Assembly (NCBI GenBank): GCA_017524615.1
Contig: JAFXVJ010000029.1
Span: 1-40,407, forward strand
DNA: 40,407 nucleotides
Direction of reading: 5' to 3'
Origin: Clostridia bacterium
GTDB lineage: Bacteria; Bacillota; Clostridia; Christensenellales; Aristaeellaceae
Positions 9,649 to 39,607 of this stretch are shown one piece after another. Each line of letters starts with the position of its first letter. The first letter of the stretch is position 1. The notes below the pieces were generated by a model, which worked only from the letters and a program-made list of their open reading frames with translations, had not been told where the DNA came from and made no database searches. The position numbers and the translations under genes were made by a program.

Positions 9649-11268
9649 ATGCTGTATGACGATTCCCCCATGACCTCCTTTCCTGTATTGACCCCGGAGG
9701 ACACCCGCCGCACGGAGCAAAAGGCCTTTGCCCTGGGCGTTTCCAGCCTGCTGCTGATGGAGCACGCGGCCCTCGCCGTGGTAGACGAACTGGAAAAAGC
9801 CCTGGGGGGCGATTGCCGGCAAAAAAAGGCGCTGTTTCTCTGCGGCACGGGCAACAACGGTGGGGACGGGCTGGCCGCTGCCCGGCTGTTCCGCATGCGG
9901 GGCGGCTATCCAACAGTATGGCTGTATGGGGAACCCAAAACACGGGACGCGCAGACCAATCTGCAATGGCTGCGGTCGGTAATAAGAGAAGAACACATTC
10001 TGGATTTGTCCAGGCTCCCGGAAAATCAGCTTCCCTTTGACGGCGAAAGCCCGAGAGAACCCTTCGACGGGTATGTGGACGCGCTGCTGGGCACCGGATT
10101 CCGGGGAAGCATCGAAAGCCCGCTGCTTTCCCGTATGGTGCTGGCCCCCTACCACGATTTCCATTTGGGCATGGAGCATATGCCGCCGGTGATCGCGGCG
10201 GATATTCCCAGCGGCATCAATGGGAAAACCGGGGAAGCGCAATGGCCCTATATGCACGCCGATGTGACCGTCACCTTCAATACCCCCAAGCCCGGGCTGT
10301 ATTTAACGAAAGAGCGGGAAGCCGTTGGGAAAATTGTGGTTGCCGATATCGGCTTATGGGATATGATGCCCTGGAACAGCGACGCGCTGCTGCTGGACGA
10401 TATGGAATTGGACTGCGAAATGCTGACGCCCCGGGCCCTTCGCATGATGGAGGCAAGGCCCGTGGGCGCGCACAAGGGCGACTGCGGCCGCGTGCTGATC
10501 TATGCCGGCAGCCTTGGCATGGCTGGGGCCGCCGCCATGTGCGCCAAGGCCGCCATTGCCGCCGGGGCGGGCCTGACCACGATCGCCTGCGAAAGGGAGA
10601 TCATCCCCATTTTACAAACGCTGATCCCCAACGCCATGTGCGTGGAGATCGGGCAAGCCGTCAAAAATCCCCCCGCTTACGATGTGCTGGCCCTGGGCTG
10701 CGGGCTGGGGCAGGATGAAGGGGCATGGAAAAACATCCTGAAGCTGTGGGATCGGGAAAAGCCCTCCGTGTGGGACGCCGACGCGCTGAATCTGCTTTCA
10801 AAGCATCCCATGAAGCTGGGCAAATGGGCCGTCATCACGCCGCATCCCGGCGAAGCGGCCCGGCTGCTGGGATGGACGGCGGAGCAGATCCTGGCCGACC
10901 GGATGGAGGCCGCCCGCGCGCTGGCCGAAAAATATGACTGCGTCGCCGTGCTGAAAAGCGACGTGACGGTGATTTGCCACATGGAGGACGGCAGGACGGA
11001 ATACCGGCTGAACGCCATCGGTTCCCCGGCGCTGGCCAAGGGCGGCAGCGGCGACGCGCTCACCGGCATCCTGGCCGCCCGCCTGCATGAAACCTATCCC
11101 CTCAACGCCGCCGCCCAGGCCTGCCTGTGGCACGGCATGGCGGGCGCCGTGGGCGAAGAAAAGTACGGTCAAAGGGAATTATCCACCGATCAATTGATCG
11201 CCTGCCTGCACGACGCGGAACGGTGGGGGCGCGGGGAGCGTCCCGCCCCGGTCGGCTGGCGCGGCTGA
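9649..11268 (+). CDS. nnr: Bifunctional NAD(P)HX epimerase/dehydratase
   Basis: The product repairs hydrated NADH and NADPH. The N-terminal half (about 1-230) is the epimerase, with GTGNNGGDGLAAARLF near residue 66 and DIPSGINGKTGE near 185. The C-terminal half (about 265-539) is the ADP/ATP-dependent dehydratase of the ribokinase-like fold. It contains KGDCGRVLIYAGS near its start, an ITPHPGEAARLLG motif, and the catalytic/nucleotide-binding KGGSGDALTGI at about 464-474. At 539 residues it has the usual size of the fused bacterial form. AAGGAAGG precedes the ATG. It is the last gene before the metNIQ control region, and no T-run terminator is evident behind it. Confidence 0.95.
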   Translation: MLYDDSPMTSFPVLTPEDTRRTEQKAFALGVSSLLLMEHAALAVVDELEKALGGDCRQKKALFLCGTGNNGGDGLAAARLFRMRGGYPTVWLYGEPKTRDAQTNLQWLRSVIREEHILDLSRLPENQLPFDGESPREPFDGYVDALLGTGFRGSIESPLLSRMVLAPYHDFHLGMEHMPPVIAADIPSGINGKTGEAQWPYMHADVTVTFNTPKPGLYLTKEREAVGKIVVADIGLWDMMPWNSDALLLDDMELDCEMLTPRALRMMEARPVGAHKGDCGRVLIYAGSLGMAGAAAMCAKAAIAAGAGLTTIACEREIIPILQTLIPNAMCVEIGQAVKNPPAYDVLALGCGLGQDEGAWKNILKLWDREKPSVWDADALNLLSKHPMKLGKWAVITPHPGEAARLLGWTAEQILADRMEAARALAEKYDCVAVLKSDVTVICHMEDGRTEYRLNAIGSPALAKGGSGDALTGILAARLHETYPLNAAAQACLWHGMAGAVGEEKYGQRELSTDQLIACLHDAERWGRGERPAPVGWRG

Positions 11269-11277
11269 GCGCAAGCA

Positions 11278-11298
11278 GTTATAGAACTAATCTATAAC
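11278..11298. promoter_or_regulatory. AT-rich palindromic operator candidate
   Basis: GTTATAGA (11278-11285) and TCTATAAC (11291-11298) form a perfect inverted repeat around ACTAA. It ends 31 bases upstream of the metNIQ -35. The core TATAG-N7-CTATA resembles LysR-type sites, including the streptococcal MET-box as I remember it. No regulator gene is adjacent. It could alternatively be a weak terminator of the preceding gene, but no T-run follows. Confidence 0.4.
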
Positions 11299-11329
11299 CG
11301 GTAATACAATCTTCATACAAACTGAATGC

Positions 11330-11358
11330 TTGACAGATTGTGGGCGCTCCCCTATAAT
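11330..11358 (+). promoter_or_regulatory. Consensus sigma-A promoter of the leader-metNIQ operon
   Basis: TTGACA (11330-11335) and TATAAT (11353-11358) have a 17-base spacer. Transcription should start near 11365, about 35 bases before the leader-peptide start codon. Confidence 0.88.
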
Positions 11359-11400
11359 ATTTTCCATCAAGGGGCCGCAGGCCGGAAGGGAGGAGCCGCC

Positions 11401-11472
11401 GTGACGAAGCATGGCAAGCGAATGTCCATGCGCGGGCGTTCCTCTCCGCGTTGTTCGTGCTGCGCCGCTTGA
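11401..11472 (+). CDS. Cysteine-codon leader peptide (23 residues)
   Basis: A strong ribosome site, GGGAGGAG (11388-11395), lies five bases before a GTG that opens a 23-codon frame. Near its end it reads Arg-Cys-Ser-Cys-Cys-Ala-Ala, then TGA. The three Cys codons (TGT, TGC, TGC at 11452-11463) are clustered where a stalled ribosome would leave the downstream antiterminator strand free. The peptide is too short to be an enzyme, and its position between a perfect promoter and an intrinsic terminator points to ribosome-mediated attenuation sensing charged tRNA-Cys. The rest of the peptide is basic. Existence of the reading frame is direct; function is inferred. Confidence 0.7.
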   Translation: MTKHGKRMSMRGRSSPRCSCCAA

Positions 11473-11475
11473 CAG

Positions 11476-11526
11476 TCGCTTTTGTTTGTTAAGCCCGTCC
11501 GCCGACAAGCGAACCGGGCTTTTTTG
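11476..11526 (+). terminator. Attenuator: terminator with competing antiterminator
   Basis: AAGCCCG (11491-11497) pairs with CGGGCTT (11515-11521), followed by an unbroken T-run to 11525, giving an intrinsic terminator before metN. A competing pairing, TCGCTT (11476-11481) with AAGCGA (11507-11512), crosses the terminator helix and is therefore mutually exclusive with it. A ribosome stopped on the Cys codons would leave 11476 onward free, whereas one reaching the stop codon at 11470-11472 would cover it. A further perfect hairpin (11544-11551 with 11556-11563) precedes metN without a T-run. Confidence 0.72.
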
Positions 11527-11600
11527 CTGGAGAGGACTTCGGCCCGGGGCAGACGTGCCCCGGAAGCAAAGGCGATGCTTTGGAAAGGAATGCATGCATT

Positions 11601-12656
11601 TTGTCTGAAAAAATCGAAAAGACCGCGGGAACTGCCCCTTCGCCCGCTGCCGCGCCGCTGATCGAGATCCGCGGCCTGAAAAAAGTGTATCAGGTGCCGG
11701 GCGGCGAGGTGGTGGCCCTGAACGGCATCAACCTGTCCATCGAAAAGGGTCAAATTTACGGCATCATCGGCATGTCCGGCGCCGGAAAATCCACCCTGAT
11801 CCGCTGCCTGAACAAGCTGGACACTCCCACGGAAGGCCAGATCCTGATCGACGGCCAGGATATCCTCACCATGTCCGGCAAGCAGCTGATGGCGATGCGC
11901 CGGAAGGTGAGCATGATCTTTCAGCAGTTCAATCTGCTGATGCAGAAAACCGTGGCGCGCAACGTGCGCTATCCGCTGGAAATTGCCGGAGTGCCGGAAA
12001 AAGAGGCCAACGAGCGGGTGACGGAGCTGCTGCGGCTGGTGGAGCTGGAAGGGAAAGCGGACGCTTACCCCATACAGCTGTCCGGCGGCCAGCGCCAGCG
12101 GGTGGCCATCGCAAGGGCCCTGGCCAGCAACCCCGAGGTGCTGTTGTGCGATGAAGCCACCTCCGCCCTGGACCCCATGACCACCCAATCCATCCTGACA
12201 CTTTTACAGGATATCAACAAGCGTTTGGGCATCACCGTGGTGCTGATCACCCACGAAATGGCGGTGATCCGGCAGATCTGCAGCCGGGTGGCCATCCTGG
12301 ATGGGGGCAGCATCGCCGAGGAGGGCACGGTGGACGACGTGTTCGTGCACACCCGTTCCGCCGCGGGCAAGCGCCTGTTCGGCATCCTGCCTTCCCGGGA
12401 GGAGGACATCGTGTCCGATGTGCCCGCGCTACGCATCGTGTTTGAAGGCGGCAAGGAGGGCATGCCCATCATCGCGGGGCTGATCAAGACCTGCGGGGTG
12501 GATGTGAACATTCTGTCGGCAGACATCAAGCCCATCAACGGCCAGCCCTATGGCCAGATGCTCATCGAATCGCCGGAGAATCCGGTGGTGCGGGGCCAGG
12601 TGATCCAATACCTGACCCAGCAGGGGCTGACGGTGAAGGAGGTGGATCCGGCGTGA
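11601..12656 (+). CDS. metN: Methionine-type ABC importer ATP-binding protein
   Basis: MetN powers uptake of methionine or related sulfur amino acids by the MetNIQ system. The 351-residue product has Walker A GMSGAGKST (about 57-65), a Q-loop FQQFNLL, the signature LSGGQRQRVAIARAL, Walker B LLCDEATSALD and the switch His in LITHEM. A C-terminal NIL/ACT-like regulatory domain (about 270-350) marks the MetN subfamily and mediates substrate inhibition. No in-frame ATG is usable; I selected TTG at 11601, with AAAGGA 11 bases upstream. The gene lies behind the Cys-leader attenuator, and its stop overlaps the metI start. Confidence 0.93.
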   Translation: MSEKIEKTAGTAPSPAAAPLIEIRGLKKVYQVPGGEVVALNGINLSIEKGQIYGIIGMSGAGKSTLIRCLNKLDTPTEGQILIDGQDILTMSGKQLMAMRRKVSMIFQQFNLLMQKTVARNVRYPLEIAGVPEKEANERVTELLRLVELEGKADAYPIQLSGGQRQRVAIARALASNPEVLLCDEATSALDPMTTQSILTLLQDINKRLGITVVLITHEMAVIRQICSRVAILDGGSIAEEGTVDDVFVHTRSAAGKRLFGILPSREEDIVSDVPALRIVFEGGKEGMPIIAGLIKTCGVDVNILSADIKPINGQPYGQMLIESPENPVVRGQVIQYLTQQGLTVKEVDPA

Positions 12657-13342
12657 CGTTTGCGGAATTCTGGGCGCACTTTGCCGCGGATATCTGGCCG
12701 GAACTGGTCAAAGCGTTGGGCGAAACGCTGTATATGACCATTCCCTCCGTGATCCTGGCGTATCTGGTGGGTTTGCCCCTGGGGGTGCTGCTGGTGATTA
12801 CCCGGCGGGGCGGGGTGATGCCCAAACCCATGTTCAATGTGGTGCTGGGCGCGGTGATCAATTTCCTCAGGCCGATCCCCTTCCTGATCCTGCTGGCGCT
12901 GCTGGCGCCGGCCACCCGGGCCGTGGTGGGGGTCGCCTTTGGGGAACCCAAAGCCGTCATCTTTCCCTTGTTCATCAGCGCGTTCCCGTATGTGGCCCGC
13001 ATGACGGAGGGCAGCTTCAACGAAGTGGACGGGGGCGTGGTGGAAGCCGCGCAATCCATGGGCTCCTCGGTGATGCAGATCGTCACCAAGGTGCTGATCC
13101 CGGAGGCGACGCCCTCCCTGATCAATGGGGTGGCCATCTGCACGGTCACCATTCTGGGCTACACCACCATGGCCAGCGCCGTGGGCGGCGGCGGTCTGGG
13201 ATCGCTGGCGATCATCTACGGCCTGAACCTGCGCCGCTATGACGTGATGTATTCCGCCAGCATCCTGCTGGTGATCCTGGTGCAGATCATTACTGTGCTT
13301 GGCACCTTCCTGACAAGGAAGTCTGACCATAGAATCCGCTGA
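12653..13342 (+). CDS. metI: Methionine-type ABC importer permease
   Basis: The 229-residue inner-membrane permease of the MetNIQ importer has five or so hydrophobic segments. The cytoplasmic EAA loop (GGVVEAAQSMGSSVMQIVTK, about 120-139) contacts MetN. Conserved MetI landmarks such as FLRPIPFLILL and AFPYVARM are present. It begins with GTG overlapping the metN stop by four bases (GTGA), so translation is coupled. Length is typical for the family. Confidence 0.93.
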   Translation: MTFAEFWAHFAADIWPELVKALGETLYMTIPSVILAYLVGLPLGVLLVITRRGGVMPKPMFNVVLGAVINFLRPIPFLILLALLAPATRAVVGVAFGEPKAVIFPLFISAFPYVARMTEGSFNEVDGGVVEAAQSMGSSVMQIVTKVLIPEATPSLINGVAICTVTILGYTTMASAVGGGGLGSLAIIYGLNLRRYDVMYSASILLVILVQIITVLGTFLTRKSDHRIR

Positions 13343-13372
13343 GGCGGAGCAATTATGAAAGGAGCTTGTTCC

Positions 13373-14206
13373 ATGAAATCCAAGAAAAACCTGCTGATCG
13401 CTGTCATCCTGGTGATCGCCGTGCTGGCTGTGCTGTATTTCACCGGCGTGTTCGGCGGCAAAAAGAGCAATGAGCTGACCATCATTGCCACCCCCAATCC
13501 CCACGCGGAAATCCTGAAGCTGGTGCAGGATGATCTGGCCAAGGAAGGCTTCACCCTGAAGCTGACCACCGTCACCGACTATGTGGCGGAGAATCCCTCC
13601 ACTGCCGCGGGGGATACCATGGCCAACTTCTTCCAGCATATCCCCTACCTGGATCAGTATAACGCCACCGCTGCCGAAAAGGATCGGCTGGTGTATGTGG
13701 TGCCCACCCATTTCGAGCCCCTGGGCCTGTATGCCGGCACCAAGTCCGCTCTGGAGGACGTGGCGGAGGGCGATAAGATCGTGGTGCCCAATGATCCCAC
13801 CAACATGACCCGCGCTTTCATACTGCTGGCGGATGCCGGCCTGATCGAGCTGCCCGAAGGCACCACCCTGACCAGCACCGTCACCAAGAATGACGTCATC
13901 AATCCCAAGGGACTGGTCTTTGTGGATGTGAACGCTGAATTGGCTCCCGGCATGCGGGAGGATGCCGCCTTCGTGGTCATCAACGGCAACAACGCCTCTC
14001 TGGTGGGCCTGAACCCCAACAACGACGCCGTGTACTTTGAACAGCCCGGTTCTCAGGCCGCCGCGGCTTACGTGAACGTGTTTGCCGTAAAGCCCGAGAA
14101 TAAGGACGCCGACTTTGTCAAGGCGCTGGAAAAAGTGGTCTATACCCAGAAGGTATACGATCTGATCGTGGCCAGTGGCTTCACGCCCGTATTTGAAGTG
14201 AAGTAA
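13373..14206 (+). CDS. metQ: Methionine-type ABC importer binding protein without lipobox
   Basis: This 277-residue protein is a member of the NlpA/MetQ solute-binding family, recognisable from TIIATPNPHAEIL near residue 36, the FFQHIPYLDQYN block, and GLYAGT with the following VPNDPTNMTRA. The start at 13373 was chosen because AAAGGAG is eight bases upstream. Unlike most MetQ proteins it has no lipobox cysteine. The N-terminus is an uninterrupted hydrophobic helix (about 6-24) followed by FGGKK, so it is probably tethered by an uncleaved membrane anchor. Downstream lies a stem-loop terminator (14227-14252) that has lost its T-run next to the hairpin array. Confidence 0.92.
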   Translation: MKSKKNLLIAVILVIAVLAVLYFTGVFGGKKSNELTIIATPNPHAEILKLVQDDLAKEGFTLKLTTVTDYVAENPSTAAGDTMANFFQHIPYLDQYNATAAEKDRLVYVVPTHFEPLGLYAGTKSALEDVAEGDKIVVPNDPTNMTRAFILLADAGLIELPEGTTLTSTVTKNDVINPKGLVFVDVNAELAPGMREDAAFVVINGNNASLVGLNPNNDAVYFEQPGSQAAAAYVNVFAVKPENKDADFVKALEKVVYTQKVYDLIVASGFTPVFEVK

Positions 14207-38112: not shown

Positions 38113-39306
38113 TCATGAGCGCATGCTGGCGGTAAATACGTCGTTGAGCTTCTCCATCCCCTGCTTGATCTGTTCCACGGAGCTCATGGAGAAATTCAGC
38201 CGGAAGGTGTTTTCGTGGCCGCCGAAGGCGTAGAAGTGGGTGCCGGGCACATAGGCCACGCCCCTGTCCACGCAGGCAGTGAGCAGCTTGCCCGCGTCCA
38301 TGCCATCGTTCAATTCGGCAAAGATGAACAGGCCGCCCTGGGGCCGGATATATCGCGCCACCCCGCCGCATTTGGCCAGCAATCCCAGCATGGTGTTCAT
38401 CTGCTCGGCGTAGCTCAGGCAAATGCGCTGCACGTGGGGCGCCAGCAGGTCGCGGCGCAGATAGGCGTCCACGATGGCCTGGTTCAGGTTGGCGGTGTGC
38501 ACGTCGCTGGATTGCTTGCCGATGGTGCATTTGCGCAGCAGCGTTTTATTGGCCGCCAGGAAGCCTACGCGCAGGCCGGGGGAGATGACCTTGGAAAAGC
38601 TGCCCATGAAGGCCACCCAGCCCTCGGTGTCAAAGGATTTGATGGCGGGCAGTTCTTCTCCCGTGTAGCGCAGATCGCGGTACGGGTCATCCTCGGCGAT
38701 GACGACGCCGTATTGAGCCGCCAGTTCGGCGATTTTCCTGCGCCGCGCCAGCGACAGGGTGCGCCCGGTGGGATTCTGGAAGGTGGGGATCACGTAGAGC
38801 ATCTTGGGATGCTCTTTTTTGAACACTTCCTCCAGTTCATCCGTCCTGATGCCGTCGTCGTCGCTGTCCACGGGCACCAATTGAGCTTGGTAGAGCCGGA
38901 TGGCCTGCATGTTGCCCAGGAATGTGGGGTTTTCCACCACGACCTTATCGCCGGGATCGATGAGGGCTTTGCACAGCAGGTCCATGGCCTGGGTGGAGCC
39001 GGTGACGGGCAGGATTTCGTCCGGGGCGCAGGTGAAGGAAAAGCGGTCCTTCAAATAGGGCGCCAGGCTTTCCCGGAGCGGGCCATACCCCTCGGTGGCC
39101 CCATACTGGAGCAGCGTTTTGCCTTTTTCCAGCAGCAATTCCCGCGCCAGTTCCGCGCAGGCTTCGTCCGGCAGGGCGGACGCGGCGGGATTGCCCCCGG
39201 CGAAGGAAATCATGCCCGGCACAGCCAGCAGCTTGAAAATCTCGCGGATGGCGCTGCCGGAAATGCCGTCAAACCGGCTGGCATAACGGATGGAATCGAT
39301 CGTCAT
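38113..39306 (-). CDS. PLP-dependent class I/II aminotransferase (aromatic or 2-aminoadipate type)
   Basis: The 397-residue enzyme is a fold-type I aminotransferase of the LysN/aromatic aminotransferase group. Visible are ISFAGGNPAASALP near the N-terminus, LLQYGATEGYGPLRE, the cofactor-contacting VIPTFQNPTGRTLS and the internal-aldimine lysine in GSFSKVISPGLRVG (K239). No MocR-type DNA-binding domain is attached. The start at 39306 follows AAAGGAGG. A T-box leader precedes it and tyrS follows, so a role in tyrosine synthesis from 4-hydroxyphenylpyruvate is likely; broad-specificity alternatives such as 2-aminoadipate or kynurenine substrates remain possible. Confidence 0.9.
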   Translation of the reverse strand: MTIDSIRYASRFDGISGSAIREIFKLLAVPGMISFAGGNPAASALPDEACAELARELLLEKGKTLLQYGATEGYGPLRESLAPYLKDRFSFTCAPDEILPVTGSTQAMDLLCKALIDPGDKVVVENPTFLGNMQAIRLYQAQLVPVDSDDDGIRTDELEEVFKKEHPKMLYVIPTFQNPTGRTLSLARRRKIAELAAQYGVVIAEDDPYRDLRYTGEELPAIKSFDTEGWVAFMGSFSKVISPGLRVGFLAANKTLLRKCTIGKQSSDVHTANLNQAIVDAYLRRDLLAPHVQRICLSYAEQMNTMLGLLAKCGGVARYIRPQGGLFIFAELNDGMDAGKLLTACVDRGVAYVPGTHFYAFGGHENTFRLNFSMSSVEQIKQGMEKLNDVFTASMRS

Positions 39307-39351
39307 AACAGATGCCTCCTTTTTCAGATGGGGAACGCGCGGCCACCCAAC

Positions 39352-39607
39352 AAAAAACCGCCTTCCTGCTGGGGAAGGCGGAGAATCGCGGTACCACTTC
39401 CGTTCGGCAGACAACCGGATGGATATCTGCCCTCGTATGCGCTGTATCCGGCGCGCCGGCGGATGCCTACGCAGGGCTGCGCCCCTTCGGATCCGGGCTC
39501 GGGGAGGTAATTCATCCTGGACTGCCGCTGTTTCCTTGCACCGCCCGGAAACTCTCTTCAATCGCGTATCAGCCGGATTACTGGGGTCCCTTCATGGCCT
39601 TGAAGGC
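39352..39607 (-). promoter_or_regulatory. T-box riboswitch leader (probably tyrosine)
   Basis: On the minus strand Stem I carries AGTA (39582-39579) opposite GAA (39513-39511), framing the specifier loop, plus AGAGAG and GGCGGTGCAAGGAAAC on the way to the apical part. The T-box proper reads AAGTGGTACCGCGA (39399-39386). A perfect terminator, CCGCCTTCC with GGAAGGCGG (39381-39358), ends in six T residues. The bases after GAA are UUACC. Depending on alignment the specifier is UUA (Leu) or UAC (Tyr). UAC leaves one base before the lower stem and fits the downstream tyrS gene, so I prefer Tyr. UGGU in the antiterminator fits discriminator A for either tRNA. Confidence 0.88.

Follow-up and report, generated by a model that had tools for sequence, protein, structure and literature searches.

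The leader upstream of metNIQ in the window appears to be a real attenuator, but its signal was probably misread when the sequence was first annotated. The window is the whole stretch of DNA that was analysed, 40,407 nucleotides from a Clostridia bacterium (contig JAFXVJ010000029.1). The initial annotation had placed a cysteine-responsive leader peptide in front of metNIQ; ribosome-mediated attenuation at this site is supported by the evidence given below, whereas cysteine as its signal is not. Our best explanation, which we consider probable, is transcription attenuation by a leader whose ribosome senses how well elongator tRNA-Met is charged, and the window's attenuator is most likely one of a larger set of Met-reading leader-peptide attenuators in Clostridia.

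The leader interval, 11269-11579, lies between metN and a frame (9649-11268) that reads as an NAD(P)H-hydrate repair protein. The consensus promoter, the strong ribosome site, the 23-codon frame with its Cys cluster (codons at 11452, 11458 and 11461) and the intrinsic terminator that had been described earlier were all recovered, and are listed with the other features in the table. The promoter was the only site returned by a promoter scan (mean of 0.3 in shuffled sequences). A simple terminator scan returned no terminators (shuffle mean 1.5) and, we think, missed the one at 11491-11521 because of its internal loops. The leader frame is presumably translated, and metN likely starts at the TTG at 11601. 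The internal Met codons of the frame are only two, at 11422 and 11428; both are conserved, and both had gone unmentioned in the initial annotation.

Features of the leader and of the genes behind it (window coordinates); metN, metI and metQ are named after their best NCBIfam matches, each of which scores under the curated cut-off
Feature	Position	Strand	Basis
Sigma-70-type promoter, TTGACA-17-TATAAT	11330..11358	+	12/12 consensus matches
Ribosome binding site of leader frame, AAGGGAGGAG	11386..11395	+	5/6 match to AGGAGG
Putative leader peptide frame, GTG start, 23 codons, TGA stop, encoding MTKHGKRMSMRGRSSPRCSCCAA	11401..11472	+	sequence
Helix P0, 5' strand; partner 11471-11480, one mismatch	11417..11426	+	pairing and swap test
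Core MSM, Met codons 11422-11424 and 11428-11430; proposed stall site	11422..11430	+	alignment of 30 leaders
Strand 1, 5' arm of P1 hairpin; partner 11445-11451	11430..11436	+	pairing output, positions derived by hand; swap test
Strand 2, 5' arm of antiterminator; holds the three Cys codons and the stop codon	11447..11475	+	swap test, pair list
Strand 3, 3' arm of antiterminator; overlaps 5' arm and loop of terminator	11486..11511	+	swap test, pairing
Intrinsic terminator, 11491-11497 with 11515-11521; T run 11520-11525	11491..11525	+	-13.7 kcal/mol; swap test
metN, ATP-binding subunit	11580..12656	+	TIGR02314 ABC_MetN, 348.6 bits (cut-off 499.7)
metI, permease	12653..13342	+	NF008049 MetI, 177 bits (cut-off 212)
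metQ, substrate-binding lipoprotein	13355..14206	+	NF008285 MetQ, 130.8 bits (cut-off 374)

In the proposed mechanism, when methionine is ample, the ribosome would pass the Met core, reach the stop codon and cover strand 2, upon which the terminator would form and metNIQ would be switched off. When Met-tRNA is short, the ribosome would halt on the Met codons and cover strand 1 and the core, so that P1 and P0 could not tie up strand 2; strand 2 would then be free to pair with strand 3, which would block the terminator and let metNIQ be transcribed. In leaders with no ribosome, P1 and P0 would hold strand 2 and the terminator would form. The presence of the Cys codons would follow from the need for strand 2 to pair with strand 3. 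We infer the stalling, the response to methionine and the order of folding, while conservation, the paired strands, the terminator and the gene neighbourhood were established by computation. A puzzle of this arrangement is that the leader starts with Met-tRNA yet must stall for lack of it, so the mechanism would have to distinguish the initiator pool from the elongator pool; it counts against the mechanism that methionine shortage would also slow initiation on the leader.

The leader recurs in relatives. Eighty loci were found using the MetN protein alone, and the upstream regions of 22 of them were read; the same arrangement stands before metN in 18, is absent upstream of metN in three (L037, L049 and L050), and in the remaining one (L053) the leader lies on the opposite strand. 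The initial annotation had named a short frame ending in clustered Cys codons, together with a terminator, as what should be conserved upstream of metN; the frame and terminator do recur, but the Cys cluster is inconstant, and the nucleotide core common to the relatives is ATGCGAATGNNCATG, which encodes Met-Arg-Met-x-Met; a further Met and a Cys often come next. A covariance model built from 30 leaders matched 62 of 200 genomes of the family and 19 of 50 genera (own genome counted) at E <=0.01, one of the 62 being doubtful since it rests on a single match (L171, in genome G165) that looks like chance. At the level of the order, 15 of 248 genomes matched, 10 within the family and five outside it, the latter weakly (E >=0.0027). 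The matches L165, L169, L170 and L171 look like chance, two of them (L169 and L170) lying in repetitive metal-gene-like sequence, and were dropped.

A later model search gave 79 matches, from which eight weak ones (E >=0.0044) and 10 duplicates of a place or genome in the set were removed and to which 12 leaders from the earlier loci were added, making 73. The folding set comprised 72 of these (the script did not find the start of L164), and 39 representatives at less than 80% identity were chosen, with L172 excluded for its long spacer. A score of at least 5 against AGGAGG was found in 70 of the 72 leaders, and a promoter score of at least 9/12 in all 38 of the 39 representatives that had enough upstream sequence, as against 51 of 760 mononucleotide shuffles.

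Evidence for alternative structures came from exchanging strands between representatives, which controls for composition, although the representatives are related sequences and not independent cases. In the window, strand 2 and strand 3 form 23 pairs at -23.7 kcal/mol, compared with -13.7 for the terminator, and this antiterminator (11447-11475 with 11486-11511) overlaps the terminator arm, so that the two are mutually exclusive. Native antiterminator pairings had a mean of -23.36 versus -18.46 when swapped, were better in all 39 representatives, and were equalled in 0 of 5000 permutations. The native terminator was better than expected in 38 of the 39, and signals that were weaker but present were obtained for P1 (29/39; 7 of 5000 permutations) and P0 (23/39; 0 of 5000). 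For three control pairings, 3745, 4085 and 452 of 5000 permutations were as good as the native mean; the first two of these pairings are antiterminators made by strand 1 or the Met core directly with strand 3, which showed no gain over swapped pairs and were rejected. The antiterminator proposed earlier, 11476-11481 with 11507-11512, was also given up: it amounts to only six complementary bases (-6.1 kcal/mol), and its analogue in the relatives is no better natively, being matched by 1463 of 5000 permutations. The stability of the whole-leader fold was no greater than that of shuffles (z -0.30) and is therefore uninformative, and RNAalifold found almost no structure in the family alignment, perhaps because two states compete.

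Peptide composition points to Met. At least one stall-zone Met was present in all 72 leaders and at least two in 69 (39 and 38, respectively, of the 39 representatives), counts that are partly circular because the set was gathered with a model containing Met. Of the representatives, 21 have at least two Cys residues in the last part of the peptide and 10 have none there, and six of the 72 leaders lack Cys entirely. For an unbiased count, frames led by a good ribosome site and lying no more than 650 bases upstream of metN were scored for clusters, defined as at least three of one amino acid in eight residues. Met clusters were found at 14 of 22 loci of the clade and 21 of 58 loci of other Clostridia, exceeding every other amino acid; Cys clusters were found at 6/22 and 2/58. 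On the reverse strands, Met clusters appeared at 1/22 (presumably the divergent leader of L053) and 0/58. Conservation of the Met core is nevertheless no proof of Met reading, since in the window's subgroup the core also pairs in P0.

The effect of ribosome position was modelled with two settings, one in which only RNA downstream of the ribosome folds, and one in which upstream RNA may pair too. With the first setting, a ribosome on a core codon brought the terminator below 0.5 in 40 of 72 leaders versus 71 of 720 with shuffled spacers, and a ribosome at a core Met codon did so in 38 of 72 (37 and 39 with two other footprints), while 32 of the 72 stayed at or above 0.5 at every core codon. A ribosome on the late Cys codons had this effect in 0 of 49 leaders, and on the stop codon in 0 of 72. 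With the second setting, the terminator was lost in only 8 of 72 leaders at the core (4 of 72 at a Met codon), and again in 0/49 at the late Cys codons and 0/72 at the stop. In the window, the first setting gave a terminator value of about 0.12 with Met10 in the A site and 0.71 at Met8, 0.78-0.99 at the Cys codons, 0.99 at the stop and 0.92 without a ribosome. The dip is broad, with values of 0.05-0.65 over codons 3-7 and 9-14, non-Met codons included, and the window's weak terminator was also broken in 5 of 10 shuffles. With the second setting, the value was about 0.8 at both Met codons (about 0.81 at Met10) and lowest, at 0.5, on codon 12. Within this modelling, the counts from the first setting (40/72 at the core, 0/49 at the late Cys codons) support Met reading, and the core counts from the second speak against it; equilibrium folding alone cannot settle the mechanism, in which the order of folding would matter.

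Except in one genus, the genes behind the leaders are methionine genes. The surroundings of 18 of 67 rows of covariance-model matches were opened, and a downstream test was then applied over all 73 leaders, the tested set being the 70 with at least 150 bases downstream. In 66 of these 70, a MetN-like gene lies downstream in the same orientation and no more than 1400 bases away, coming directly after the leader in 65; 34 of the 39 representatives have such a gene. At L162, metA (homoserine O-acetyltransferase; NF047918, 462.1 bits, cut-off 460.5) stands between leader and MetN-like gene. The four leaders without a MetN-like gene behind them are L163 and L155-L157. The leader of L163 precedes metY (O-acetylhomoserine sulfhydrylase; TIGR01326, 553.7 bits, cut-off 495.1), behind which is a metF-like gene (methylenetetrahydrofolate reductase-like) at 291.6 bits, just below its cut-off of 293.7. 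The proposed regulatory codons fit the pathway, with Met clusters ahead of MetN-like genes and, at two loci, of metA, metY and metF-like genes. In the one genus of L155 (2561-2688), L156 (2162-2290) and L157 (2126-2254), the leader is divergent from metN and stands before a conserved frame, which in L155 had no NCBIfam match.

These results bear on other explanations of the leader. A cysteine attenuator, in which a stall on the Cys-Ser-Cys-Cys codons frees the antiterminator, now seems very unlikely. Points for it are the three Cys codons that the window carries shortly before the stop, the frequency of Cys in the leaders (123 of the 871 residues of the 39 representatives) and the existence of cysteine attenuators elsewhere (PMC8632094). 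However, the claimed geometry turns out to be the reverse: the Cys codons are part of the antiterminator strand and none lies in the window's stall zone, so a ribosome stalled on them would cover strand 2 and termination is expected, as also modelled in 49/49 leaders, in which the terminator stayed at or above 0.5 with the ribosome on the late Cys codons under both folding settings. Furthermore, 10 of the 39 representatives do without Cys in that part of the peptide, and the downstream genes are methionine genes. Nine leaders stop early, and in eight of them (L124, L188, L144, L184, L167, L040, L005 and L003, drawn from two genome groups) the stretch UUUGUGYUGC is kept behind the stop, so that its bases are retained there without being read as Cys; it is not kept in the ninth, L048. 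The exact stretch occurs in only 23 of 63 late-stop leaders, and elsewhere, including the window, strand 2 varies in step with strand 3. A cluster of codons in a leader may therefore serve base pairing instead of sensing. With the cysteine signal unsupported, the further step to an importer of cysteine or cystine-related substrates falls as well. A dual sensor, in which the codon after the Met cluster is often Cys and a stall on either would open the antiterminator, is an unlikely reading of the window, where Arg takes the place following the Met cluster and the stall zone is free of Cys; moreover, a UGC at that place may also serve P1 pairing. In its favor, the stall zone includes Cys in 26 of the 39 representatives, and the Met-Cys dipeptide occurs in 27 of the 39 where 16.8 would be expected, as well as in 19 of 20 leaders from other families (L063-L111) where 9.2 would be. 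Given this over-representation, a Met/Cys sensor is possible in relatives.

We give little credence to arrest by the nascent chain, in which the peptide (Met-Arg-Met, with Arg as CGA) would halt the ribosome by responding to a small molecule (for example, methionine or S-adenosylmethionine) and not to tRNA charging. The Arg codon is CGA in 57 of 72 leaders, a constancy beyond what conservation of the residue would by itself require, but CGA is also part of helix P0, the peptides of other families share mainly their richness in Met, and long Met runs fit the counting of codons better. It is also most improbable that the site is an ordinary terminator or read-through junction with a short frame arising by chance and no regulation. 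Short frames with good ribosome sites do arise randomly (8 and 15 on the reverse strands of the 22 and 58 loci), but the window's frame has its own promoter, the leader model matches in 62 of 200 genomes, and the alternative helices covary; recurrence of the whole leader in relatives indicates more than chance. Reading of tRNA-Met charging remains our preferred explanation.

In Firmicutes, regulation of methionine genes is usually attributed to SAM riboswitches, Met T-boxes and protein regulators, and SAM riboswitch and T-box leaders control met genes by premature termination. The present leader would resemble the latter two in placing methionine genes under premature termination and differs in that neither the SAM riboswitch (RF00162) nor the T-box (RF00230) gave a match at the leader site, where Rfam returned two matches far under their gathering scores. 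Elsewhere in the same genome a single SAM riboswitch match stands ahead of a frame reading as metK (L239 451-1686, G000 contig 15), and there are 15 T-box matches at E <=0.001, one of them above the cut-off; the usual devices are therefore present nearby and absent at the leader site. In an Rfam search of 20 other loci, L075 has a SAM riboswitch shortly before metN.

Amino-acid attenuators of the trp, his, leu and thr operons follow a four-strand scheme. The classical examples (PMC1262725, PMC2965389) share with our leader a Shine-Dalgarno-led frame with codons of the pathway, a 1:2 hairpin, a 2:3 antiterminator and a 3:4 terminator; here, in contrast, the codon is Met, the host belongs to a Clostridia lineage, and an ABC importer lies downstream. 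The cysS attenuator uORFC-8-2 of Rhodobacterales (PMC8632094) is alike in its upstream frame, two stems and terminal U run, but its tandem Cys codons are taken as the sensor, whereas those of the window lie within the antiterminator strand. In Mycobacterium and Propionibacterium, cys operons have Cys-run leaders that likewise carry Cys codons near the stop (PMC1262725); no conserved terminator hairpin is reported for them, in contrast to the intrinsic terminator and methionine genes of the window, and the same paper reports no conserved RNA structure ahead of the methionine operons of Actinobacteria. A Leu-rich attenuator peptide of Staphylococcus aureus is named in the title of another paper (PMC5794164). 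Among openly licensed full texts, we found no paper on a methionine-reading leader peptide of this kind.

Met-rich frames upstream of metN were found in 21 of the 58 further Clostridia loci, among them those of Agathobaculum massiliense (MLALRMSMCMMCGFARFSAIQP), [Clostridium] clostridioforme (MNQLRAMQMNMDMMNSMYMMMCCVSAWAKN) and [Clostridium] citroniae, and since these three records bear the names of cultured species the idea is testable. A terminator-like hairpin stands behind 20 of the 21; L061, with no T run behind its frame, is doubtful and was dropped, and the other 20 were analysed further. The terminator fell below 0.5 at some codon in only four of these 20 (L068, L077, L094 and L097). 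A pattern of the Agathobaculum type was found in 11 of 81 genomes of its family, all 11 by reading before a MetN-like frame, and one of the clostridioforme type in 10 of 200 genomes of its own family, five before a MetN-like frame and five chance by their context. We suggest only tentatively that there is a Clostridia class of sulfur-amino-acid leader attenuators, in which Met codons, often followed by Cys, would act as a combined Met/Cys sensor before metNIQ and some methionine biosynthesis operons, beside SAM riboswitches, T-boxes and protein regulators. In Herbinix hemicellulosilytica (L068), the leader frame upstream of metN carries Met-Cys repeats (MCNMCDMCGMCNMYDM).

Two other regulatory RNAs were matched in the window, both on the minus strand. 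A NiCo riboswitch at 1258-1334 (RF02683; 40.3 bits, gathering score 37) precedes the bulk of a frame (299-1348) reading as a cation efflux protein. A T-box match at 39371-39604, which at 71.7 bits falls short of its gathering score of 93 (E 1.4e-15), overlaps the start of a frame (38113-39561) that reads as an aminotransferase.
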